From an uncultured Flavobacteriaceae bacterium (GTDB lineage Bacteria; Bacteroidota; Bacteroidia; Flavobacteriales; Flavobacteriaceae): a stretch of DNA of 64,000 bases. A program made the translations under genes and the position numbers. Each line of letters opens with the position of its first letter. Position 1 is the first letter of the stretch. Below are positions 2,023-52,891 of the stretch, in pieces. The stretch is from positions 1-64,000 of the forward strand of contig CAJWPZ010000002.1 of assembly GCA_913045325.1 (NCBI GenBank), given 5' to 3'. A model generated the notes under the pieces. That model was not told the origin of the DNA, did not search any database, and was given only the letters and a program-made list of their open reading frames with translations.

Positions 2023-3498
2023 CTATTTCTTTACCCAATCACTTGCAAAAACACAGTCTCTGTAATCTTTATTTACATTTACATAGGTGTCTTTAATTTT
2101 TTGCGCTTGCCACTGCTCAATGGTCTTAATTTGTTTTTGACGTAGGGCAAGAGATTTAATTTTCTCGTAGTCTTTTACAAAATCTGCAGGATGCTCCTCA
2201 TACTTGTTTGTTACCGTTAAAAACTTATAGGTCTTTTTACCTGTTCTGTCTTGGTCAATAAATATTTTTGAAACTTCATTTTCGGCTAGATTGTAAACCT
2301 GAGCGCTCAAAGTAGGATCCATTTTTGTTAAATCAAAACGGGTGTCTTGATTTGTAGGATTTACTAATTGCCCCCCATTGTTACTAGTATTACTGTCATC
2401 AGAGTATAGACGAGCAGCTCTACTAAAGGATATACTGTCATTAATAATACTGGTTCTAATTTTTTCAATTCGGTCTTTTGCCTCATTAATAGCATCATTG
2501 GTTAACTCTGGAAATAAAATGATATGACGTACATCTATTTCTTGCCCACGAATTTTATCCACCTTTAGGATATGATAGCCAAATTCTGACTCAAACGGCT
2601 CACTCACTTCACCCTCTAACAAAGAAAAAGCAACATCTTTAAATATCTTAGAATATGGATCTCCTCGGCGCATACTTGGCAGTAGACCACCCCTTGAGGC
2701 AGCTCCATCTTTAGAATACAAAACAGCTTTGGTAGCAAAACTAGAACCTCCCTCTACAATATCTTCTCTCAATTCATTGAGTCTATCCAAAACCCCTTGT
2801 ATGGCCTGTTTAGAAAATTTTGGCTCCACAACAATTTGAGCCACCTCTACCTCTGCACTAAATACCGGACGCTCATCCTGGGGTATGCTATTAAAGAAAA
2901 CAGATACCTCCTCTGGAGTAACCTCAACCGCTTCAACTACTTTGGCTTGCATGCGTTTTGCTAGCTCTATATCTCTTTTGGCTTTCAACAAATCGTTTTT
3001 AAGCTGCAATAAATTGTCTTTACGGTAGTATGCTACCACCTTTTCTTCACTACCTAGTTGCCCAACCATATACTGTACTAGTTGGTCTACTTGCGGGTTT
3101 ATCTCTGCATCAGAGATGGTAATGCTGTCTTGTTTTGCTTGATGAAGGTATAACTTGTCTTCCATTAACTTCCCTAGAAGTTCACAACGGGTAATATCTT
3201 CTACAGAGACTCCATTTTGCTTAAATTCTAGATAACTCTTGTCTATATCACTATCCAAAACCACATACCCACCAATAACGGCAGACACTCCCTCTGCCTT
3301 GTACCTTTTAAAAGGCAGTACAGAATCATTTTGCTTTAATTGGCTAGGGGCTTCTAGCAATGGGTTTTCTTTTGCAACTCCTGTACTATCTACAGCAACC
3401 ACCTGTTGAGCAACCATAAAGGTTTGAGCACTTAGCAACAAAAGTATTGCAATACTATTTTTGGGAATACACTTCAAAATTTTTGTTTTTAACAGCAT
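2023..3498 (-). CDS. Periplasmic SurA-like peptidyl-prolyl isomerase
   Basis: A 491-residue parvulin-type foldase. The N-terminus is a long hydrophobic signal sequence ending near FMVAQQ (about residue 32). A SurA-like N-terminal helical region follows, then one clear PpiC domain (about 215-315, containing GAASRGGLLP and FGYHILKV) and a second, more diverged one (about 320-425, starting VRHIILFPE). SurA proteins escort outer-membrane proteins through the periplasm and isomerise X-Pro bonds. The start overlaps the upstream gene by 44 bases; no other Met would leave an intact signal sequence, so translational coupling is likely. This is the SurA candidate of the operon. Confidence 0.88.
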   Translation of the reverse strand: MLLKTKILKCIPKNSIAILLLLSAQTFMVAQQVVAVDSTGVAKENPLLEAPSQLKQNDSVLPFKRYKAEGVSAVIGGYVVLDSDIDKSYLEFKQNGVSVEDITRCELLGKLMEDKLYLHQAKQDSITISDAEINPQVDQLVQYMVGQLGSEEKVVAYYRKDNLLQLKNDLLKAKRDIELAKRMQAKVVEAVEVTPEEVSVFFNSIPQDERPVFSAEVEVAQIVVEPKFSKQAIQGVLDRLNELREDIVEGGSSFATKAVLYSKDGAASRGGLLPSMRRGDPYSKIFKDVAFSLLEGEVSEPFESEFGYHILKVDKIRGQEIDVRHIILFPELTNDAINEAKDRIEKIRTSIINDSISFSRAARLYSDDSNTSNNGGQLVNPTNQDTRFDLTKMDPTLSAQVYNLAENEVSKIFIDQDRTGKKTYKFLTVTNKYEEHPADFVKDYEKIKSLALRQKQIKTIEQWQAQKIKDTYVNVNKDYRDCVFASDWVKK

Positions 3499-4309
3499 CT
3501 TTAGTAATGTCTTTTTCTAGTTCCTTGATAAGTTCTAGCGTTCTTTTATTTAAAATAATTTCTTTAATAATAGGCTTAATATATTGCAAAGGTGCTGTTT
3601 GATTGGGAGATAGCACCTGCTTAATTTTGAGCAAATATACTCCTAATGAATCTTCTAATTGGGAGAAAGTTGCTTTTTTTAAAACCTTAGATTCTTTGTT
3701 TCTAATTACAGGGAGTTGCCTTAGTAAGGTTTCTTTTTTCACCCAAACAGAGTCGTTAAAATTAGCTCCCTTATACTCTAGACTACTACCCTGGAGTGCA
3801 ACAATGTCCTCGGTATTAAAACGACGTAGTTTTTGCTTTGTTTCAGAAATGGCTGGAAAACTTGCATCTAGATGTATGTATCGCAACTTGTAAATCTCTT
3901 CCTTTAGTGTGAAATTCGCTTTATTTTGTTGGTAAAACAAGTCATACTCTTGTTGGGTTACAGTGCTGTCTAAAAGCTTAGATACAATAGCCCCTTTATA
4001 GGCCTCTGCAAACAAATCATTTCTATACTGGGCTACCATTCCTTGGTAGTCCTCTATTTGCTGCTGTGGCAAATTAATATTTGCTTGATCTATAAGTAGC
4101 TGTTGTGTTGCCCATCTTTGAATATAATTGGCAACAATACTAATACTGTCTTGTTTTGTGGTGTTTTCTGAAATTAATGCCTGTATATCTTGTTGGTATA
4201 AATAAGTCTCGTTTACCCTAGCTACAGGCACTTTGGTGCTTTTTGGCTCCAAAAAATCACAGGCAACTATCCCCATGCACAACGTAAATATAAAAAGAAG
4301 TTTATGCAT
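3455..4309 (-). CDS. Lipoprotein with SurA_N-like fold, no evident PpiC domain
   Basis: A 284-residue lipoprotein: the signal peptide ends in a lipobox GIVAC with the lipidated Cys at residue 17. The rest looks like the chaperone part of the SurA/PrsA family (VARVNETYLYQQDIQALI, then helical segments). I see none of the PpiC landmarks (a Gly-Gly loop followed by GYH) that both neighbours have, so it is probably a chaperone without isomerase activity. Its start codon overlaps the stop of the upstream gene at 4309, and its 3' end overlaps the next gene by 44 bases, so the three are tightly co-translated. It probably works with the flanking foldases on outer-membrane or lipoprotein clients. Confidence 0.8.
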   Translation of the reverse strand: MHKLLFIFTLCMGIVACDFLEPKSTKVPVARVNETYLYQQDIQALISENTTKQDSISIVANYIQRWATQQLLIDQANINLPQQQIEDYQGMVAQYRNDLFAEAYKGAIVSKLLDSTVTQQEYDLFYQQNKANFTLKEEIYKLRYIHLDASFPAISETKQKLRRFNTEDIVALQGSSLEYKGANFNDSVWVKKETLLRQLPVIRNKESKVLKKATFSQLEDSLGVYLLKIKQVLSPNQTAPLQYIKPIIKEIILNKRTLELIKELEKDITKDAVKNKNFEVYSQK

Positions 4310-6270
4310 TATTTTTTAAGTTCTTTCTTGATTTTTTTAAGTGTCTTTTTATGTATCACCACAGGATACTTCTCTCTAAGGCTTTGCATCCAAGAGGCTT
4401 CAAGCTGTTGTTGGTACTGGCTCATCACAGTACCTCTTACCTGGTCAAAAGATTTTTCTCCAGAAGGCAACACCTGGTCTACTTGCACCAAGGTATAGCC
4501 GTCCTGGCCTTTGTATATTTTTGATACTCCAGCAACAAACTCAAAATTATCTGGTAGTTGTTTATCCCCATTTTCAAACATCCCTTTTGAGAGTAAAACC
4601 CTTAAAGAGGCATCGCTGTTAAGTAATTCTTTCACTTGTTGTGGTGTCTTCCCTTGTTGCAATAAAACCTTAGATTCTTCTAGTGCTGCTTTTTCATTGC
4701 TTGTTAAAATAGTAGCATCCACTCTATCTTGCCATAGATACGTTGCTTTGTTTTTTTGGTAAAATTTTTGTAGAGCTAAGGTATCTGTTTTTGCGGCATT
4801 CCAGATGTTCTTTTCCATCACATCAAAAATAAGCAGGCCATCTCTATACTCACTAATCACTGCGGCGTAGTCAAGATTTTCTTCTTCTAGTTTATCTATA
4901 AAATACTCTTGAAGTACTACCGTTTCAAAATCATCATACATATACCTTACACAACTCTCTAGAGTCTTAACAGTTGTTGGTACCGGTCTTTTTTGTCTAA
5001 CTGCCAAATGTGCAGCAAAATCTCTGTAGTAAAAACGTGTACTTCCAATAGTAAAAATAACCTTATCTAGTGTAGGGTTTAGGCTATCATAGCTCCATCT
5101 TCTATTAAAAATTTCTTTGTCTACAAATTGGTTAAAAAAGCTAGCATAGCTAGCATCATTTGTATAACCGTATTTGTCTTTTATTTTACTTCTTATCTCT
5201 GAGGTGACAGCCAACAATCTTTCTCCTCTATTTCCTTGAGCTAGGAGCCTGTCTCTTTGCTGCTCAAAGGTTTTTGACTCACTAATCGCCTCCAAACGTA
5301 TAATGTGCCACCCAAAAGCGGATGAAACTGGCATAGAAATATCTCCAGGGGTAGTTAACTTAAAAGCAGCAGTCTCAAACTTAGGAGCTCTTAACTTTCC
5401 TCTTGTAAAGGGTTTTAATTTACCTCCAGAGACACCAGAGTTTTTATCTTCAGAGAATTGCTTTGCCAAGTCTTCAAATTTCTGTCCTTGATTTAATAAT
5501 TGGTATAATTCGTTTATTCTCACCTGAGGATCAAATTTAGGATCCTTATTTTTATTTGACACCATTATGTGAGAAACTGTAATTTCATTTCCGGTGGGCC
5601 TTCTGTCTAAAACCTTAATAACATGATATCCATAACTGGTTCTTGTGATATCAGAAATGGCACCCACCTTAGTGTTGTAGGCAGCGTTTTCAAATGGATA
5701 TAACATAGAAAAAGCAGAAAAATAACCCAGGTTTCCATTTTGCTCCTTGGTATTTGGCTCTTCAGAGTATTGAAGCACTAAATCAGTGAAATCTTCCCCG
5801 TTTTTAGCCTTTTGCATAACCTGTGCGGCTTTATTGTAGGCCTGTAAGGTGTCTTGTGGCAAGGCATCATAGCCAACCATAATCAAAACGTGTTGCGCAT
5901 TAATCTGCTCCTTAGAACGCTCATAAGCCTCACGGGCCATGTCTTCTTCGATCTTCTGCTCAAACAAGTAATTTCTAGATAATTGAGCACGGTATTTTTC
6001 AAATTCCTTTTTGTATGCCTTTGCTTGATCCAATTTTTGAGCATAGGCCTCTTGCACTTTTAGCTTATAGTCTACAAATAAATCTAAATAACCATCCACA
6101 GATTTTTGAGACGCGTCTTTTACTAAATCTAGATTTTTTTTATACACCCTTAAAAACTCTTGTTTATAAACAGGAGTATTTTCAATGGTAAGAATAACAT
6201 CTTTCTGGGATTGAGAATATGCTGTAAACACAAAAGAGAATAGTGCGCATACAAGGATAATTTTTTTCAT
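4309..6270 (-). CDS. Periplasmic PpiC-type isomerase with two parvulin domains
   Basis: 653 residues from the ATG at 6270, which starts the signal peptide MKKIILVCALFSFVFTAYSQ. A longer reading from 6363 is possible but would begin upstream of the promoter seen at 6329-6358, so I prefer the shorter form. An N-terminal SurA_N/trigger-like helical part is followed by two PpiC domains: about 125-220 (AQHVLIMV to GYHVIKV) and 230-325 (VSHIMVSN to GWHIIRL). The C-terminal 300 residues are mostly helical and basic at the very end. First gene of the operon. Likely role: folding and quality control of exported proteins. Confidence 0.88.
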   Translation of the reverse strand: MKKIILVCALFSFVFTAYSQSQKDVILTIENTPVYKQEFLRVYKKNLDLVKDASQKSVDGYLDLFVDYKLKVQEAYAQKLDQAKAYKKEFEKYRAQLSRNYLFEQKIEEDMAREAYERSKEQINAQHVLIMVGYDALPQDTLQAYNKAAQVMQKAKNGEDFTDLVLQYSEEPNTKEQNGNLGYFSAFSMLYPFENAAYNTKVGAISDITRTSYGYHVIKVLDRRPTGNEITVSHIMVSNKNKDPKFDPQVRINELYQLLNQGQKFEDLAKQFSEDKNSGVSGGKLKPFTRGKLRAPKFETAAFKLTTPGDISMPVSSAFGWHIIRLEAISESKTFEQQRDRLLAQGNRGERLLAVTSEIRSKIKDKYGYTNDASYASFFNQFVDKEIFNRRWSYDSLNPTLDKVIFTIGSTRFYYRDFAAHLAVRQKRPVPTTVKTLESCVRYMYDDFETVVLQEYFIDKLEEENLDYAAVISEYRDGLLIFDVMEKNIWNAAKTDTLALQKFYQKNKATYLWQDRVDATILTSNEKAALEESKVLLQQGKTPQQVKELLNSDASLRVLLSKGMFENGDKQLPDNFEFVAGVSKIYKGQDGYTLVQVDQVLPSGEKSFDQVRGTVMSQYQQQLEASWMQSLREKYPVVIHKKTLKKIKKELKK

Positions 6271-19474: not shown

Positions 19475-20419
19475 TTATGCTTTTGTCAATGCTTTAGGTA
19501 AAAATACCTCAGCCATCATGCACCTAGCACTTCCTCCACCACAGGTTTCTATGGTGGTCAAATCGCTGCTTAGAATCTTACAATGCTTCTGGATTGCCTT
19601 TACCTGATCACTTCTCAAACTAGAACGAGCTGCCTCACTCATGATCATGTATTTTTGATTGTCTGCTCCCAAAACCTGTAGCATATTTCCTGCAAATTGA
19701 TGCATCTGAGCCTCTGTGATTGCTATGACCTCTTTCTTTGTTTCTTTAAGGTGTTTGAGCACTTGTTTCTTCTCATGTTTATCATCAATGGTGTCAAGAC
19801 AAATAACCACAAAATTCTCAGCCAAGGCCATCATAACGTTGGTGTGGTAAATAGGCTTTCGCTGGTCATAAACAGTTTGATTTGCCGTGAAAATAACGGG
19901 GTCCATCTCAAAATCTTCACAAAACTCTACAATAAGCTCCTCATGAGCTCTCTGGGAGATAGCACAATACGCCTTCCCATTTTCACGATCCAACAATAAA
20001 CTACCAGTACCTTCTAAGAAATACTCTTGCTCCTCTGCCTGGGTATAATCCATGAAGCCGTCTATAACAAATCCCTCTTTTTCTAGTCTGGTGATAATCT
20101 CCTCACGTCTTTCACGACGTCTGTTTTGAGCAAACATAGGATACAGAGCAACAGTTCCGTTTTGATGAAAGCTAACCCAGTTGTTTGGAAAAATAGAATC
20201 TGGGGTGTCTAGGCCCATGATATCATCTTCAACAATAACTTCAACACCCACACCCCGAAGTTTTGTTACAAATACGTCAAACTCTGACTGCGCCTTTGCA
20301 TTAATTTCTGAGTATTTTAAATCAAGATCTTCTTGAAAATAATTATTCACCTTGGTTTGTTCATTCATTCTAAATGCAACAGGGCGAATCATTAATATGG
20401 TGTTGGTAATTTGCTTCAT
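19475..20419 (-). CDS. ctlX: Citrulline utilisation hydrolase-type protein (CtlX)
   Basis: 314 residues of the guanidino-group-modifying superfamily (arginine deiminase/DDAH fold). The N-terminal IRPVAFRMNEQTKVNNYFQ, the middle DSIFPNNWVSFH and HTNVMMAL (catalytic His), and the C-terminal GGGSARCMMAEVF (catalytic Cys) fit the CtlX subfamily, described as a hydrolase acting on citrulline. The alternative is a generic amidinotransferase-fold enzyme with another substrate. It is cytoplasmic. A TACCTTTG promoter element lies at 20448-20455. A second member of the fold is encoded at 23613. Confidence 0.85.
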   Translation of the reverse strand: MKQITNTILMIRPVAFRMNEQTKVNNYFQEDLDLKYSEINAKAQSEFDVFVTKLRGVGVEVIVEDDIMGLDTPDSIFPNNWVSFHQNGTVALYPMFAQNRRRERREEIITRLEKEGFVIDGFMDYTQAEEQEYFLEGTGSLLLDRENGKAYCAISQRAHEELIVEFCEDFEMDPVIFTANQTVYDQRKPIYHTNVMMALAENFVVICLDTIDDKHEKKQVLKHLKETKKEVIAITEAQMHQFAGNMLQVLGADNQKYMIMSEAARSSLRSDQVKAIQKHCKILSSDLTTIETCGGGSARCMMAEVFLPKALTKA

Positions 20420-20666: not shown

Positions 20667-21107
20667 ATGAATAAATATCTATTGCTTTTTATTTTTTGTG
20701 TGATGGGTTTCACCCAACTGCATGCCCAACAATGGCTTACTAGTTTCCAGAAGGCTAAGGAGCTGTCTGCAATTCAAGAAAAAGAAATAATACTCGTGTT
20801 TCAAGGCAGCGATTGGTGCGCACCTTGTATTAAATTAAACAGAGAGATATTTGAGACACCATACTTTTTAACGTATGCTAAAGACCATTTTATTATGCTG
20901 CAAGCAGATTTTCCTAAACGTAAAAAAAACAGCTTAACTCCAGAGCTGCAGGCTCACAATAATGCCTTGGCAGAACGATACAATAAAGGAGGTATCTTTC
21001 CTTTTGTTGTTGTTTTAAATAAAGACGGCAGCGTTTTAGGGCAAACGAGCTACTCCAAAAAAACACCCCAAGAGTATATCCTTGAACTAGAAGGTTTTAT
21101 TAAGTAA
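20667..21107 (+). CDS. Secreted thioredoxin-fold protein
   Basis: 146 residues. The signal peptide ends near LHAQQ (about 21). The active site WCAPCIK (Cys 51 and 54) sits after FQGSDWC, and a cis-Pro element appears in IFPFVVVLNKDG. It belongs to the thioredoxin_7/TlpA-like group and would act in the periplasm as a disulfide reductant or isomerase. It is the first gene of a four-gene operon with apbE (10 bases downstream), DUF4266 and DUF3570. Its probable job is keeping the Cys residues of the DUF4266 lipoprotein reduced; that is inference from context. Confidence 0.9.
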   Translation: MNKYLLLFIFCVMGFTQLHAQQWLTSFQKAKELSAIQEKEIILVFQGSDWCAPCIKLNREIFETPYFLTYAKDHFIMLQADFPKRKKNSLTPELQAHNNALAERYNKGGIFPFVVVLNKDGSVLGQTSYSKKTPQEYILELEGFIK

Positions 21108-21117
21108 CCCCAAACAC

Positions 21118-22101
21118 ATGCTCAAATTTTTAAGTTATGTATGCCTCTTTTTTTGTTTGTCTTCGGCAATAAGCCAAAACATATACAAGCAAAAAACATC
21201 CCTTATGGGCAGTGATTTTGAAATCACTGTGGTTGCTAAAACACAACAAGAGGCAGACCGGCAAATTGGTATAGCTATAGATGAAATAAGCAGAGTTGAG
21301 GCCTTAATTTCTTCTTGGAAGCCCACCTCACAAACCTCCAGTATTAATAAAAATGCAGGTATTGCACCTGTTAAAATTTCAGGAGAGCTTTTTAGCCTTA
21401 TCCAAAGAGCCATACAAATTAGCAAACTAACAGACGGGGCTTTTGATATATCTTATGCATCTATGGACAGGTTATGGAAATATGATGGGAGTATGACCCA
21501 AATGCCCTCCAAAGAGGCCATAAAAAAATCTGTAGCCAAGGTGGGATATAAGAGTATTGTTCTTGACCCGAAAAACAGCACTGTTTTTCTGAAAAACAAA
21601 GGAATGAAAATTGGTTTTGGTGCCATTGGCAAAGGGTATGCCGCAGATAAGGCAAAAAAACTACTTATTTCAAATGGTGTTTCTGGAGGTATTATTAATG
21701 CCTCTGGGGATATCAACTCCTGGGGAAGCAAACCAAACGGGAGCCCTTGGCAAGTTGCCATTACCAACCCTCTCAATAAAAATAAAGCCTTTGCAATGTT
21801 ACCCATTAAAGATGCGGTAGTCACTAGTGGAAATTATGAAAAATATGTTACTTTTAACTCTAGAAGGTATTCTCATATTATAGATCCTAGAAGCGGTTAT
21901 CCCGCCCAGGGAATTATTAGTGTTACTGTATTTGCTCCAAAGGCAGAACTAGCAGACGCCTTGGCAACTTCTGTTTTTGTAATGGGAGTGCAAACTGGAA
22001 TAGATAGAATCAATCAATTAAAAGCAATTGAGTGTATTATCATTACAGATACAGGTAGTATTATTACCTCAAACAACCTAAGTTTAAACACCAAAGAATG
22101 A
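21118..22101 (+). CDS. apbE: FAD:protein FMN transferase (ApbE)
   Basis: A 327-residue flavin transferase that moves FMN from FAD onto a Thr/Ser of extracytoplasmic proteins, with Mg2+. The signal sequence ends near AISQ (about 19). Family motifs: GSDFEITVVAK, DISYASMDRLW, GFGAIGKGYAADK, NASGDINSWG and the SHIIDPRSGYP segment. The DUF4266 gene starts inside its stop region (4-base overlap). The canonical acceptor motif (D-x-x-S/T-G-A-T/S) is not evident in the neighbouring proteins, so the flavinylation target is an open question. Confidence 0.95.
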   Translation: MLKFLSYVCLFFCLSSAISQNIYKQKTSLMGSDFEITVVAKTQQEADRQIGIAIDEISRVEALISSWKPTSQTSSINKNAGIAPVKISGELFSLIQRAIQISKLTDGAFDISYASMDRLWKYDGSMTQMPSKEAIKKSVAKVGYKSIVLDPKNSTVFLKNKGMKIGFGAIGKGYAADKAKKLLISNGVSGGIINASGDINSWGSKPNGSPWQVAITNPLNKNKAFAMLPIKDAVVTSGNYEKYVTFNSRRYSHIIDPRSGYPAQGIISVTVFAPKAELADALATSVFVMGVQTGIDRINQLKAIECIIITDTGSIITSNNLSLNTKE

Positions 22102-22307
22102 AAAAATTAATAGTATTTGTTATAGCCCTTGGGTTTTTATCTTCTTGCGCCGTGGTAAAAGAATATGAAAAAGTAAACATCAATGATCCAGATATGGCCT
22201 TGGGTGATAAAACCATAAAACGTTTTGAGACAAGTGCCCAAGCATACAGAGAAGCAGCCTCTGGTGCTAATGGAGGAAAAACTGGCGGTGGTTGCGGATG
22301 CAACTAA
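22098..22307 (+). CDS. DUF4266 lipoprotein with Gly-rich Cys-Gly-Cys tail
   Basis: 69 residues. The signal peptide has lipobox FLSSC, so Cys 17 would be lipidated, leaving a mature chain of about 53 residues. The tail KTGGGCGCN puts two cysteines (66 and 68) in a flexible Gly-rich end, the hallmark of DUF4266. An ASGAN stretch at about 54-58 loosely recalls an FMN-acceptor site but ends in Asn rather than Thr/Ser. It is translationally coupled to apbE. The tail could bind a metal, form a disulfide, or be modified. Function unknown. Confidence 0.9.
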   Translation: MKKLIVFVIALGFLSSCAVVKEYEKVNINDPDMALGDKTIKRFETSAQAYREAASGANGGKTGGGCGCN

Positions 22308-22346
22308 CAAGTAAAATATTTAGGTAAACAACAAACAATCATACTC

Positions 22347-23612
22347 TTGAAAAAAACACTTTTACTCATACTTTGCTTTACCACGCTAATGGCATACAGC
22401 CAGGATACTATCGTTAACTATAAAAAAAGAGTTTTAGAGTCTGTAGAGGTTGATTTGCTTGCAAGTTATTATAGCCAAGATGGTGATAACGCAGCGGTAA
22501 CTGGAGGAATAGGAACAGAAGAGCTTACAGATTTAGCATCCAGCATTGTTGTATCCATACCCCTTAATGATGATGATGTTTTAAAAATAGACGCTAATGT
22601 AAGCGCCTACACCTCTGCCTCTTCAAGTAATGTAGATGCTTTTGATACTGAGGGTCAAGCAGCAGATCCTTTTGTAGCCTCTTCTGGAGCCTCTGGGAGT
22701 GATGAATGGGTAAACGGTGTGATAACATACAGCCATAGTAGTGATAATAGAAATAACATATGGGGCGCTAATGTTTCTGTATCTAAAGAGTATGATTATT
22801 TCTCAATTGGTTTCGGTGGAAATTACACGCATCTTTTCAATGAAAAAAACACTGAAGTATCTATTAGCGGAAATGTATATTTTGACCAATGGAAGTTAAT
22901 TTACCCCGGAGAAATACGGGAATCTTTCAATGAAGATGTACCCGAAGAACTTGCTCGGAAGGGATTGCCTACTGATAAAAGAAACTCATACGCTCTTGGG
23001 TTTGGGGTTTCTCAAATACTATCAAAAAGAGCGCAAGGTTCACTCTCCCTAGATTTGGTGCAACAAGAGGGCTTATTGTCTACACCATTTCAAAGAATTT
23101 ATTTTTCAGATATCGTTAATCCTATTATTATAGGAAACTTTCGATTTGCTGATGACATAGAGCGCCTGCCAAGCAGTAGGTTTAAAGTTGCTATTGGCGG
23201 GAGATTAAATTATTATTTAAATGAAGTGTTTGTGTTAAGATCTTATCTTAGGTACTACAAAGACAATTGGGGTATCACATCCTACACAGCTAGTTTAGAG
23301 ATGCCTATTAAACTAGGAGATTTCTTTACATTATATCCATCTTATAGATATTATACCCAAACCAAAGCAGATTATTTCTATAAAGCTAACGATGCTCTCT
23401 CTACAGATGCTTTTTATACCAGTGATTATGATTTATCTAGTTTTAACGCTGGAGAGTTTGGCTTTGGAGTATCATACACAGATATTTTTACCAAAGTAAA
23501 ACTACTTGGCTACGGTTTAAAAAGTATTAACGCAAAAGCAAGCTATTACAACCGCAGTAGTTCTTTGTCCTACTTTATGGTCTCTGGTGGGTTAACCTTT
23601 GTGCAAGACTAA
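22347..23612 (+). CDS. DUF3570 outer-membrane beta-barrel protein
   Basis: 421 residues with a TTG start leading into the signal peptide MKKTLLLILCFTTLMAYSQ. The N-terminal part contains the family stretch YSQDGDNAAVTGGIGTEEL (about 42-60), then an acidic segment. The rest alternates short amphipathic strands rich in Tyr/Phe and ends FMVSGGLTFVQD, consistent with an outer-membrane barrel. DUF3570 and DUF4266 genes commonly occur beside apbE and a thioredoxin gene, as here. It may be the outer-membrane component of a redox or export pathway; nothing is proven. Confidence 0.9.
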   Translation: MKKTLLLILCFTTLMAYSQDTIVNYKKRVLESVEVDLLASYYSQDGDNAAVTGGIGTEELTDLASSIVVSIPLNDDDVLKIDANVSAYTSASSSNVDAFDTEGQAADPFVASSGASGSDEWVNGVITYSHSSDNRNNIWGANVSVSKEYDYFSIGFGGNYTHLFNEKNTEVSISGNVYFDQWKLIYPGEIRESFNEDVPEELARKGLPTDKRNSYALGFGVSQILSKRAQGSLSLDLVQQEGLLSTPFQRIYFSDIVNPIIIGNFRFADDIERLPSSRFKVAIGGRLNYYLNEVFVLRSYLRYYKDNWGITSYTASLEMPIKLGDFFTLYPSYRYYTQTKADYFYKANDALSTDAFYTSDYDLSSFNAGEFGFGVSYTDIFTKVKLLGYGLKSINAKASYYNRSSSLSYFMVSGGLTFVQD

Positions 23613-24527
23613 CTAGTCTCTTATAAGTGGCATGGTAGAGCAGCGCAACAGGCCTTCTTGCTTTGCAATTTCTGAATAACTAACCTCTTCTACGGTATAG
23701 CCTTTTTTACGCAGCCAAGAGTTGAGCCTTGTAAAGTTTTTTTCTGAAATAATTACATCTTCACTAATACTAAAGATATTACTATTCATGTGATACATCT
23801 CATTTTTATCTATATGAAAGCAATTTTGAGGGCCAAAAAAGTCTAGTATCCACTGGTACTCTTTCTCTATCAAGAAACCATCTTTATGGATAATACACCT
23901 ACCATGGCCAAGGGGTTGAAAACAACAATCTAAATGTAGCGCATTATCTTGCGGTACTGTATTTGACTTTTTTAAATTAAAAGGTTTTACTATTTTTTTT
24001 GGAAACAGCTCTTGCAATGCCGTTACTGCGGCCATGTTGGTGCGGGCAGTAATATAACTTGAGTAGTCATCACCATAATAGGTGCCAACAAATAGGTAAT
24101 CTCCATAAGGCATTACATCACCCCCTTCTATATGAACCTGCTCAGGAAAGGTTATTACCTTTTGTGGATCTATTTGATTTATCACATATTGTAAGGCGTC
24201 TATCTCACGGGCTCTATTTGATAAAATATTAGCATTAATAAAGAGGTTGTCTATCACAAATGCAATATCTCTAGAAAATATTTGGTTGTAGTTTTCAATC
24301 TGGCTTGGACGATATACTTTTACACCATACTTCTCTAATACGGCGGCAACACCTTCCATTTCCAAAATCATATCCTGGTTTGTAGGATAGGTACCCGCTT
24401 TTATGTGCGCCGCAGATTTAGGGTCATAGGCCTGCTCTAAAGTAGGAGTTGGTCCATTACTATTTGCAGTGCCTAAAACAACAGCTCGAAGCCTTGAAAA
24501 TTCATTTGTGATATTTAATTGTAGCAT
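23613..24527 (-). CDS. Arginine deiminase / DDAH-fold hydrolase
   Basis: 304 residues of the amidinotransferase fold. Landmarks are HIEGGDVMPYGDYLFVG (EGGD substrate-binding motif), HLDCCFQPLG (catalytic His region), MYHMNSN, and a C-terminal GLLRCSTMPL whose Cys is the expected nucleophile. It is probably a hydrolase of arginine, a methylated arginine or another guanidino compound; the substrate is not deducible. It is convergent with the DUF3570 gene, with no bases between them. Confidence 0.85.
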   Translation of the reverse strand: MLQLNITNEFSRLRAVVLGTANSNGPTPTLEQAYDPKSAAHIKAGTYPTNQDMILEMEGVAAVLEKYGVKVYRPSQIENYNQIFSRDIAFVIDNLFINANILSNRAREIDALQYVINQIDPQKVITFPEQVHIEGGDVMPYGDYLFVGTYYGDDYSSYITARTNMAAVTALQELFPKKIVKPFNLKKSNTVPQDNALHLDCCFQPLGHGRCIIHKDGFLIEKEYQWILDFFGPQNCFHIDKNEMYHMNSNIFSISEDVIISEKNFTRLNSWLRKKGYTVEEVSYSEIAKQEGLLRCSTMPLIRD

Positions 24528-47928: not shown

Positions 47929-50900
47929 ATGAAAATGAAAACAAAGTTTAGTGGAATTTTAACGCTATTACTAGCGTTAGTAGTGCAAATATCATTTGCA
48001 CAGGAAAAAACAATCTCCGGTACAGTGACTGATGATTCAGGCTTACCGCTACCAGGAGTAAATATTATTGTAAAAAGTACGACAAATGGTACTCAATCTG
48101 ATTTTGATGGAAATTACTCTATCTCAACAGAAGTGGGACAATCACTTGTTTACTCTTATGTAGGGTTTGACTCTCAAGTAAAACTTGTTACTGCATCATC
48201 AAGTATGATGAATGTAACAATGGCTGAGGGAGAAACGCTTGATGCGGTAGTACTTACAGGTTACGGTGGTGCAACTAAAGAACGTAAGTCTTTAGGATAT
48301 GCAGTTACAACACTTCAAGCTGATGAAATCGAAAACAAACCAGAATCTGACGTTGTTAGATCTTTAAATGGTAAAGTTGCCGGTGTTCAGATTGTAGGTA
48401 ACAGTGGAGCTACAGGATCAGGTACTAACTTTGTTATTCGTGGTAGAAGTTCTATTAACGGAAGCAACCAACCTTTATTTATTGTAGATGGTGTTCCTTT
48501 TGACTCTGGTACAAACCAACAAACTGGTTTTGGTGGTGGTAACACAGTTACAAGTAGCCGTTTCTTAGATTTAGATCCAAACAATGTTGAGAGTGTACAA
48601 ATCTTAAAAGGTTTGAGTGCTTCTGTATTGTATGGACAACAAGGTAGAAATGGTGTTGTACTTATTACAACCAAAAACGGATCTACCAAAAACTTAAACA
48701 AAAAGTTTGAGGTAACGGTTAACTCATCTGTATACCAAACACAGATCTCTAACCTTGCAGATTACCAAAATGAGTATGGTCAAGGAGCTGATAACACAAT
48801 CAACTCTGGTTATGTAGGTAACTGGGGAGCTCGTTTTGACGCTGGTCTTGAGGTATCTCACCCATATGCTTCTTTTGGAAATTTATTCCCTGAATATGAC
48901 GGGTTAAAAATTCCTTACGTAGCAGCACCCAATAACGTAAAAGATTTCTTTAGAACTGGACTAGGTCAATCTATGTCTGTAAATGTTGCAGGATCTCCTG
49001 GAAATGATGGTAACACTCGTTACAACTTAAACTTTGGTTACACAACCGAAGACGGTTACATTAGAAATAACGGTTTAACTCGTTACAACATTGGACTAGG
49101 TGGTTCTACAAAACTTTCTAATAAATTCTCATTTAATGGAACTGCTAACTTTAGTAGCACAAGAGTAAACACTCCTCCAATTGCTGCAAACAACGCAGGT
49201 GGAGCTTTATCTATTTTTACGAGAACATTATTTATGCCAAGAAACTTGGATTTAAATAACATTCCTTATGAAAATCCTAACGATAGATCTAGTGTGTATT
49301 ACAGAACAGATCAAGAAAATCCAAGATGGTTATCTAACTATGCAGGAAGTGAGCAAAAAACAAATCGTTTTTACGGTAAGATAGGCGCTTCTTATGAAAT
49401 GTCTGAAAACTCGTCAATATCTTACCGATTTGGTTTGGATACATACAACGAAACTCAAGAGTTTAAAGCAGCTCGTGGAAGTGTTACGGCACCATACACA
49501 ACTGGGTACTTAAGAACAACAAGTGGTACAAACTTTATTTTTGATCATAACTTGAACTTTAGTTTTAATAACATTGAGCTTGCTGATGAGTTAAGTTTAA
49601 CTACTCAATTAGGTTTCAATGCAAGACGTGATACCTATGAGCAATTTGGACAATCTAGTCAAAACCAAGTAGTATTTGGTTTCTTTGATCATGACAACTT
49701 TATTGACCAAACAATTAATGACCCAGTTGCAGGTAGTTTAACTTTTCAAGCACAACAGAACATTTTAGGTGCATATGGTGAAGCAGCTTTTGATTATGGT
49801 GGATACTTATTCTTAACTCTTTCTGGTCGTAATGACTGGGCTTCAACCCTTGAGGCTGAAAATAATACGTTATTTTATCCTGGTGCTTCTTTAGCATTTG
49901 TTCCAACATCTATGGATGGTGGATCATCAGATGCTTTAAATTACATGAAGTTCCGTGCAGGTTACGGTACATCAGCTAGGTTCCCAAATGCATATTCTAC
50001 AAGAACAGGGTTTAACTCTACAGCTTCTGCTGTAATTGGTTCAGACGGAAATGCAGTTACAACAAACGGATTATCTTCTTTCTTAGGAAATGTAAATCTT
50101 AAACCAGAACTTCAAAAAGAATTTGAACTTGGTTTAGAAGCAGATTTATTCAAGAAAAGAATAAGTGTTGATGCAACTGTTTACAAAAGATCAATACGAG
50201 ATCAAATTGTAAGAAGACCAATTTCGCCATCTAGTGGAGCAACAGTAACATTTGATAATATTGCAGAATCGCAAATAGAAGGTGTAGAAATAGGTTTAGA
50301 CTTTACACTAATTAAAAGTGATAACTTCACTTGGAGTGTACGTAACAACTTTAGTGCCGCAGAAAACACAGTTATAGACTTAGGTGGTGTTGAATCTTTT
50401 GCTTATGCAGGATTCTCTAACCTAGGAAACTATGCTTCTGAAGGTGAGGCGTTAGGTGTTATTAAAGGTGGATATGCTGCAAGATATGATCCAGCTTACA
50501 TCTCTGATGAAAACCCTTACGGTACAGGTGTAAATGGAGCATTACTTATTAATCCAGGAACGGGTCAAATTCTTGACTCAGAAGGAGATTTAGGTAGAGG
50601 TATCGAAACAATTGGTGATCCTAATGCAGACTGGACAGCAACAACTATTAATACTTTAACATACAAGCAACTAGCTGTATCTGCACAATTAGAGTATACG
50701 CATGGTGGAGAGATTTATTCTCAGACTGCATCTCAGTTTTACCGTCGTGGTGTTACAACAGTAAATGTAGATAACAGAGAAGGAACATATATTGTTCCAG
50801 GATTATTAGCTAACCCAACTACTGGTCAATTATTATTGGACACAGATGGGAACCCAATTGAAAACACAATTCAAATTGGAGCAAATGATCTATACTTTAT

Positions 50901-51192
50901 CAACTTAGTTGATCCATCTGGTCAAGGTATTTATGACGCATCAACCATACGTTTAAGGGAAGCATCATTAACCTACTCACTTACAGAGAAAATGTTAGAG
51001 AAAACTCCATTTGGAAACATCTCTTTCTCTTTATCTGGTCAAAACTTATATGTAAAGGCAATCAATATTCCTGATGCATTTAACATTGATCCAGAAGCAT
51101 TGAGTGTTGGAACAGGTAATGGTCAAGGTTTAGAATTCCAAACAGGACCTACATCTAAGCGTTACTCATTTGGTATAAAAGCAACATTTTAA
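47929..51192 (+). CDS. SusC/RagA-family TonB-linked outer-membrane protein
   Basis: 1087 residues. The signal peptide ends at ISFAQ (about 25). A carboxypeptidase-regulatory-like domain (27-105, ISGTVTDDSGLPLPGVNIIVK) is followed by the plug (about 115-225, with FVIRGRSSINGSNQPLFIVDGVPF) and a long barrel ending IKATF. It imports substrates captured by the neighbouring SusD protein, using TonB energy. There is no glycoside hydrolase or regulator nearby, so the substrate (glycan, peptide or other polymer) is unknown. Confidence 0.96.
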   Translation: MKMKTKFSGILTLLLALVVQISFAQEKTISGTVTDDSGLPLPGVNIIVKSTTNGTQSDFDGNYSISTEVGQSLVYSYVGFDSQVKLVTASSSMMNVTMAEGETLDAVVLTGYGGATKERKSLGYAVTTLQADEIENKPESDVVRSLNGKVAGVQIVGNSGATGSGTNFVIRGRSSINGSNQPLFIVDGVPFDSGTNQQTGFGGGNTVTSSRFLDLDPNNVESVQILKGLSASVLYGQQGRNGVVLITTKNGSTKNLNKKFEVTVNSSVYQTQISNLADYQNEYGQGADNTINSGYVGNWGARFDAGLEVSHPYASFGNLFPEYDGLKIPYVAAPNNVKDFFRTGLGQSMSVNVAGSPGNDGNTRYNLNFGYTTEDGYIRNNGLTRYNIGLGGSTKLSNKFSFNGTANFSSTRVNTPPIAANNAGGALSIFTRTLFMPRNLDLNNIPYENPNDRSSVYYRTDQENPRWLSNYAGSEQKTNRFYGKIGASYEMSENSSISYRFGLDTYNETQEFKAARGSVTAPYTTGYLRTTSGTNFIFDHNLNFSFNNIELADELSLTTQLGFNARRDTYEQFGQSSQNQVVFGFFDHDNFIDQTINDPVAGSLTFQAQQNILGAYGEAAFDYGGYLFLTLSGRNDWASTLEAENNTLFYPGASLAFVPTSMDGGSSDALNYMKFRAGYGTSARFPNAYSTRTGFNSTASAVIGSDGNAVTTNGLSSFLGNVNLKPELQKEFELGLEADLFKKRISVDATVYKRSIRDQIVRRPISPSSGATVTFDNIAESQIEGVEIGLDFTLIKSDNFTWSVRNNFSAAENTVIDLGGVESFAYAGFSNLGNYASEGEALGVIKGGYAARYDPAYISDENPYGTGVNGALLINPGTGQILDSEGDLGRGIETIGDPNADWTATTINTLTYKQLAVSAQLEYTHGGEIYSQTASQFYRRGVTTVNVDNREGTYIVPGLLANPTTGQLLLDTDGNPIENTIQIGANDLYFINLVDPSGQGIYDASTIRLREASLTYSLTEKMLEKTPFGNISFSLSGQNLYVKAINIPDAFNIDPEALSVGTGNGQGLEFQTGPTSKRYSFGIKATF

Positions 51193-51203
51193 AAAAAAAA
51201 GGT

Positions 51204-51245
51204 ACTAGTAAGGTGGTAATTAATTTACCACCTTGTTATACTAGT
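51204..51245 (+). repeat. Stem-loop between susC- and susD-like genes
   Basis: Inner stem AAGGTGGTAA / TTACCACCTT with a 5-base loop, plus an outer stem ACTAGTA / TACTAGT. No T-run follows (GTAACCTAAAA), so it is probably an mRNA-stabilising or attenuating element that sets the SusC:SusD ratio rather than a full stop. Confidence 0.65.
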
Positions 51246-51271
51246 GTAACCTAAAAATTTAATTATATATT

Positions 51272-52891
51272 ATGAAAAATATTTTAAAAATAACATTCGT
51301 AACAGCTATGTTGGCTTTATTCACTGGATGTGAAACAACAGAGCTAGATTTACTAGACAACCCTAATGCAATTAGTGCAGACGTGGCAAGTCCAAATTTT
51401 GTATTAAACTCAATTCAATTGTCATTTAATGGTATTGTTAGTGGGTTTAGAGGAAGTTCATCAAACCTTACTCGTATGACTGCCCAGTTTGGTCAGTACA
51501 ATGGTACAGTTTCTGTTAACTCATTAAATGGAACTTGGTCATCTGCCTATAACATGTTTGCTAACGTAGACTTAATAGAAGAAATAAATGCTATAAGTGA
51601 AGTGCCAATTCCTTATCACGTAGCTGTAGCTCAAATTATGGAAGCTTACACATACATATCACTTGTTGATTATGTAGGTGATGTACCTTACAGCCAAGCA
51701 AACCAGTTTGGTGAGTTTCCAACACCTGAACTAGATGAAGGTCAAGTTGTATACGAAGCTCAAATAGCTTTGTTAAATACAGCTATTTCTAACCTAAACC
51801 AAGAATCTGCAGTAATACCACAAGATTTATTTTATGGTAGTTTTGATGCAGATAACTGGATTGCAGTAGCAAACACACTAAAATTAAAAGCCCACTTAAA
51901 CATGGGTGATGGTGCAGCTATTTCAGGTTTATTGTCTGAAAACATTATTGATACTGATGATGAAGATTTTCAATTCGAATACTCTTCTGCTACTTCTCCA
52001 GAATCTAGAAGCCCAATATTTCAAGGAAACTATCCTAACGGAACTGGATTTTACATGAGTAATGGATTTTTAGATATGTTAAACGCAGGTGATGCTGAGG
52101 CTCCTTACGTTGAAACAGGAATCGCAGATCCAAGACTACGTTACTATATCTACCGTCAAAAAAATGCAGGTCCTTCTGGATCTAACTTACCATGTTTAGA
52201 TAATGATATCTATGACTACTGTTATGTTGGTAACCTTTATTGGGGTAGAGATCATGGGGATGATGAAGGGATTCCAAATGATAACACAAAAAGATCTACA
52301 TGGGGAGTATATCCAGGTGGTGGAGCTTTTGACAACAACCAATACAACAGAACAGATTCTAGTAATACCGTAACACTTAATGGTGAAGGTATAAACCCAA
52401 TATTCTTATCATCTTTTACGCACTTTGCACTTGCTGAGGCAGGATTAGATTTAGGAGTTGGTGTTGATGCTAGAGCATTATTAGAAGCAGGTATTTCTCT
52501 TAGTATGGAAAAAGTAACTGATTTTTCAGGATCATTAATTACTACTGATGAAGATGATGAAACAATCGATTATGCTGCAACATCTGCAGATATCAATGAT
52601 TACATTGCTAGAGTATTAGCAGAGTATGATGCTGCGTCAGGAGACGATGCTAAATTAGCTATTGTTATTAGAGAATGGTACATCGCTTCTTGGGGTAACG
52701 GTATAGAGCCTTACAACATGTACAGAAGAACAGGATACCCTACCTTGCAAACTGGTGTTGTACCAGTAGGTCCATTCCCAAGATCTTACAGATATCCGTC
52801 TGATGAAGTAAACACGAATCCTAACGTAGATCAAACTACTGCAGATAACCAAGTATTTTGGGATACTAACCCAGCTGGTTTCATTAACTAA
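51272..52891 (+). CDS. SusD/RagB-family nutrient-binding lipoprotein
   Basis: 539 residues. The signal peptide has lipobox ALFTGC (Cys 19). The mature protein has TPR-like helices (PNFVLNSIQLSFNGIV; SSAYNMFANVDLIEEINAI; YTYISLVDYVGDVPYSQANQFGE) typical of the SusD-like_2 branch, and loops with acidic repeats (TTDEDDETIDYAATSADI). It forms the lid of the SusC barrel on the cell surface. 79 bases downstream of the susC-like gene. Confidence 0.95.
   Translation: MKNILKITFVTAMLALFTGCETTELDLLDNPNAISADVASPNFVLNSIQLSFNGIVSGFRGSSSNLTRMTAQFGQYNGTVSVNSLNGTWSSAYNMFANVDLIEEINAISEVPIPYHVAVAQIMEAYTYISLVDYVGDVPYSQANQFGEFPTPELDEGQVVYEAQIALLNTAISNLNQESAVIPQDLFYGSFDADNWIAVANTLKLKAHLNMGDGAAISGLLSENIIDTDDEDFQFEYSSATSPESRSPIFQGNYPNGTGFYMSNGFLDMLNAGDAEAPYVETGIADPRLRYYIYRQKNAGPSGSNLPCLDNDIYDYCYVGNLYWGRDHGDDEGIPNDNTKRSTWGVYPGGGAFDNNQYNRTDSSNTVTLNGEGINPIFLSSFTHFALAEAGLDLGVGVDARALLEAGISLSMEKVTDFSGSLITTDEDDETIDYAATSADINDYIARVLAEYDAASGDDAKLAIVIREWYIASWGNGIEPYNMYRRTGYPTLQTGVVPVGPFPRSYRYPSDEVNTNPNVDQTTADNQVFWDTNPAGFIN

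Follow-up and report, generated by a model that had tools for sequence, protein, structure and literature searches.

Which protein receives the flavin when an exported ApbE is encoded in a short operon that has no FMN_bind protein? The question is raised by the window, a 64,000-nucleotide stretch of contig CAJWPZ010000002.1 from an uncultured Flavobacteriaceae bacterium. Genes for a thioredoxin-like protein, ApbE, a DUF4266 protein, and a DUF3570 protein lie head to tail on the + strand at 20667-23612, with intergenic gaps of 10, -4, and 39 bases. The preliminary description had reported four same-strand genes with these gaps, and the coordinates and Pfam families agree. It had also stated that no acceptor site is evident in the three proteins other than ApbE, but DUF3570 carries an exact [S/T]GA[S/T] acceptor, SGAS, at residues 113-116. 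We put the probability that the operon is a member of the DUF3570-type flavinylation system, with DUF3570 as the ApbE acceptor, at about 0.8. The features are as follows.

20667-21107, + strand: secreted thioredoxin-like protein; Thioredoxin_7 (Pfam, 4e-12); active-site WCAPC with Cys51 and Cys54
21118-22101, + strand: ApbE, exported FAD:protein FMN transferase; Pfam PF02424, 2e-84, positions 1-266 of 266
22098-22307, + strand: DUF4266 small lipoprotein; Pfam 1e-19; Cys17 as probable lipid anchor; C-terminal GGGCGCN with Cys66 and Cys68
22347-23612, + strand: DUF3570 protein, predicted outer-membrane beta-barrel and putative ApbE substrate; Pfam 9e-34; TTG start
22611-22622, + strand: DUF3570 site 1, TSAS, residues 89-92; variant acceptor with Ser for Gly, from the alignment
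22683-22694, + strand: DUF3570 site 2, SGAS, residues 113-116; canonical ApbE acceptor motif

The Operon and Its Host Genome

The host genome, a draft of 1.88 Mb spread over 51 contigs, is approximately 90% complete, and a family search finds in it a single copy each of DUF3570 and DUF4266. Its nearest named relatives are the Flavobacteriaceae metagenome assemblies L048 to L050, with a DUF3570 identity of 85-95%. The TTG start of DUF3570 is conserved in three close relatives. ApbE is full length and has its conserved residues; G197 and D198, T236, H253, and D280 are among those conserved in at least 95% of 24 relatives. The thioredoxin-like protein shows a weak likeness to DsbH, under the DsbH cut-off. 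The DUF4266 protein had been described as a 69-residue lipoprotein ending in GGGCGCN; the length and the tail are as described, and a lipobox-like SSC is seen at Cys17. Its C-terminal CGC is invariant (62 of 62 relatives). The operon is flanked by two genes of the arginine deiminase/dimethylarginine dimethylaminohydrolase superfamily, at 19475-20419 and 23613-24527, both on the - strand, and L048 to L050 keep both flanks.

Candidate Acceptor Sites in DUF3570

SGAS by itself is weak evidence, since at least one [S/T]GA[S/T]-type motif is expected in about 6% of shuffled DUF3570 copies that preserve composition only. The real evidence for a DUF3570 acceptor is that the position of this candidate motif is conserved among relatives. 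An alignment of 82 DUF3570 proteins places two sites in register, one canonical (SGAS) and the other, TSAS, aligned with a canonical site of green sulfur bacteria. In green sulfur bacteria the residues aligned with site 1 read V-[S/T]-G-A-S, and in most of the other proteins [T/S]-S-A-S; only two of the 82 depart from its Ala-Ser. At site 2, the aligned columns hold SGAS or SSAS in 42 of the 82; SGAS is the form seen in the window and the flavobacterial proteins closest to it, SSAS that of many of the other proteins. The match at site 2 is looser for green sulfur bacteria, in which the second motif lies at varying distances. SGA is also retained in a gammaproteobacterial DUF3570 homologue of 27% identity. 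A regular-expression scan had suggested that most class-level relatives are without the motif; this was rejected, as the alignment shows S-S-A-S at the same places. Neither site is preceded by the usual upstream Asp, and site 1 is without the usual Gly.

Whether site 1 still accepts flavin is a question of its own. Ser replaces Gly at site 1 in most relatives outside green sulfur bacteria, and in a tree of the 82 sequences the Gly/Ser difference tracks the major branches with few changes. In another ApbE substrate, a Gly-to-Ala change cuts flavinylation roughly by half (PMC12052999). Site 1 may no longer be flavinylated in this lineage, leaving a single-flavin barrel; this variant of the main explanation, not exclusive of it, is a possibility to be taken seriously, though we hold it to be the less probable outcome. 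TSAS has no Gly, and flavobacterial relatives retain SGAS at site 2 only, both of which would suit such a loss. Against it, site 1 preserves its Ala-Ser in nearly every one of the 82 proteins, and apbE is still present in operons whose two sites both read S-A-S. In these operons, S-S-A-S may be accepted by the ApbE partners, or the operon may have persisted after loss of flavinylation; the former seems likelier because Ala-Ser is conserved. The Ser-for-Gly change at site 1 may be mildly new, and the published motif logo may already cover the variant. If ApbE accepts Ser for Gly, the motif used for finding ApbE substrates would widen.

The Published DUF3570 System

The operon of the window is an unexceptional representative of a DUF3570 flavinylation system that has been described. 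Méheust et al. (2021; eLife 10:e66878, PMC8238504) reported 285 DsbD flavinylation clusters, with DUF3570 in 227, Thioredoxin_7 in 183, and DUF4266 in 221. A further 316 clusters contain ApbE, DUF3570, a thioredoxin-like protein, and DUF4266 without a neighbouring DsbD (PMC8238504). The same study remarked on the CXC tail of DUF4266. Covalent FMN on a DUF3570 protein was demonstrated there for Chlorobium luteolum alone: the cognate ApbE flavinylates the protein at two sites, and substitution of both serines is needed to abolish the modification. The claimed acceptor puzzle is thereby removed: the motif had been overlooked, and the system was already published. In the literature searched, no functional work on DUF3570 or DUF4266 postdates 2021.

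The operon of the window shares with the clusters of Méheust et al. the four families, the CXC tail, and the acceptor sites in DUF3570. It resembles the 316 clusters that have no DsbD nearby, and in the host genome DsbD is encoded elsewhere. It differs in that site 1 is TSAS rather than [S/T]GA[S/T], leaving one canonical site, and in having no flanking VIT1. The Chlorobium luteolum pair (DUF3570 ABB24424.1, ApbE ABB24423.1) offers a homologous substrate family beside apbE. In relatives from green sulfur bacteria, site 1 falls in the alignment columns that it occupies in the window but carries Gly, and the clusters often include a DsbD-like gene and a TlpA-like thioredoxin. Family f73, which comprises the relatives with two canonical sites, was assigned to the green sulfur bacteria, the group to which the protein of the published experiment belongs, because all six of the DUF3570-rich genomes tested (6/6) encode the FMO bacteriochlorophyll protein. 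Single genomes of green sulfur bacteria contain as many as nine DUF3570 matches, which are frequently arranged in tandem and mostly have two SGAS/TGAS motifs each (L101:3990-13456, L095:5756-10594).

The families also travel together across the phylum. Among 395 phylum genomes, DUF3570 occurs in 118 and DUF4266 in 113, all of the latter nested within the former (113/113; Fisher p about 1e-93, with kinship among genomes ignored). In 54 DUF3570 neighbourhoods, a sample that includes near copies and some loci that stop at contig edges, apbE is found in 47, DUF4266 in 50, a thioredoxin of the window's type in 36, and the gene order of the window in 32. Frequent occurrence of DUF3570 and DUF4266 without apbE had been named, together with FMN_bind substrates elsewhere in the genome, as what would refute the preliminary proposal; such occurrence is rare, given the 47 of 54 neighbourhoods with apbE, and the outcome speaks against an unusual system.

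A Candidate Electron Route

In the mechanism that we propose, the exported ApbE would move FMN from FAD onto Ser116 of DUF3570 (SGAS), and Ser92 in the variant TSAS is probably flavinylated as well. Flavinylation would take place before or during assembly of the barrel in the outer membrane. Cytosolic electrons would traverse the inner membrane via the DsbD encoded elsewhere; the genome has one full-length DsbD, on another contig. DsbD would pass them to the secreted thioredoxin (CAPC), which would hand them to the CGC tail of the DUF4266 lipoprotein. The disulfide potential of CGC is -167 mV as quoted in PMC4316792, and the value is also given in PMC3173608; a potential near -167 mV would be suitable for exchange with thioredoxins. 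The CGC tail could then reduce the protein-bound FMN on DUF3570, and the FMN could reduce a substrate, possibly Fe(III), at the outer membrane or beyond it. The mature DUF3570 of the window has zero cysteines, and a redox connection from the CGC tail to the barrel would therefore have to run through the flavin. The present analysis shows the sites, the gene set, and the genome context; the placement of the lipoprotein, the route of the electrons, their direction, and the final acceptor are what we infer. The full route from DsbD through thioredoxin and the CGC lipoprotein to the FMN-bearing barrel has, in our estimate, slightly less than an even chance of being correct. It would fit the facts and is in line with the hybrid thioredoxin-flavin route that PMC8238504 puts forward. 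The preliminary description had also suggested electron transfer involving the barrel; this part agrees with PMC8238504 and the present data, whereas its view of the DUF4266 tail as the ApbE target falls, as [S/T]GA[S/T] is not found in that tail.

The thioredoxin and the CGC lipoprotein might instead form a thiol-disulfide or metal-handling branch that serves maturation or metal loading of the barrel and carries no electrons to the flavin. CGC tails mimic disulfide isomerases well (PMC4316792) and could bind metal, and VIT1-like and RND-efflux-like genes lie near the operon in some relatives. We regard such a branch as unlikely: the cysteine-free mature DUF3570 needs no disulfide, and in green sulfur bacteria DsbD-like genes lie next to the set.

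Fold and Topology of the Predicted Barrel

The AlphaFold model of DUF3570, built from five sequences and of low confidence, has a mean pLDDT of 51, a pTM of 0.52, and about 16 strands. Nearly all of the Foldseek matches listed for it are outer-membrane barrels (porins, FadL), with TM-scores of just ~0.2-0.27. The strand connections in this low-confidence model alternate between short ones of 7, 4, 3, 4, 4, 3, and 2 residues and others of 16, 33, 2, 31, 35, 4, 27, and 5. In known barrels, the short turns are on the periplasmic side. On this ground, the model weakly suggests that both flavin sites are at or in the second long loop, on the outer side or folded into the lumen. ApbE acts in the periplasm, and attachment would therefore have to precede insertion of the barrel.

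Taken furthest, DUF3570 could be a haem-free outer-membrane electron conduit, with one or two FMN in a long extracellular or lumen loop, fed from the periplasm by the thioredoxin and the CGC lipoprotein, and flavinylated before insertion by an ApbE that takes both S-S-A-S and S-G-A-S. This combination is speculative, and we would bet against it.

Other Possible Targets of ApbE

The FMN_bind proteins NqrC and RnfG, which are flavinylated by ApbE, are alike in chemistry and motif class. They differ from the operon of the window, whose acceptor would be a predicted outer-membrane barrel and in whose four proteins Pfam finds no FMN_bind domain (PF04205). The genome encodes one FMN_bind protein, NqrC, inside an nqr cluster, and the ApbE of the operon could mainly serve Na+-NQR (NqrC/NqrB), its place in the operon being incidental. 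We consider this highly improbable, as a second ApbE is encoded on another contig (C7:65422-66258) and ApbE adjoins DUF3570 in 47 of 54 loci. The second ApbE probably serves Na+-NQR. It had been suggested earlier that FMN_bind substrates elsewhere in the genome might account for ApbE; NqrC is indeed present, but the separate second ApbE could serve it, and the explanation of an orphan ApbE by FMN_bind elsewhere was rejected since this second ApbE exists. The likely flavin sites of NqrC and NqrB are D-A-L-A-G-A-T and S-G-E-T, both off the textbook motif (L047:2733-3482, 3485-4693).

Least probable of all, with hardly any chance in our view, is that the target of ApbE is the DUF4266 tail, or some other non-canonical residue, and not DUF3570: a conserved SGAN/SGGN stretch of DUF4266 resembles S-G-A-x, but the window and almost all relatives have Asn or Gly at its fourth position where Ser/Thr would be required, and the canonical site sits in DUF3570, the demonstrated substrate in a homologous operon (PMC8238504). 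DUF4266 was rejected as acceptor on account of the missing Ser/Thr at the acceptor place. The near-motifs pointed out before, SGAN (55-58) in DUF4266 and VTGG (51-54) in DUF3570, are both at the positions given.

Neighbouring Genes

No DsbD or iron transporter gene was found beside the operon of the window. A family search of the host genome (~90% complete) found no VIT1, and an association with VIT1 in this host was rejected for that reason. Among relatives, a DsbD-like gene is recurrent downstream of the operon (7 loci). VIT1-like genes, named by eye, lie near the operon in six loci (L029, L033, L034, L036, L086, and L111). The recurrent downstream DsbD-like gene and the nearby VIT1-like gene are features that these relatives share with the clusters of Méheust et al. 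(PMC8238504). RND-efflux-like genes occur near the operon in some relatives, and genes for Rieske-like proteins, named by eye from sequence, lie upstream of it in five loci. Elsewhere in the window, a SusC/SusD-like pair, a TonB-dependent receptor and a SusD-like lipoprotein, is encoded at 47929-52891.
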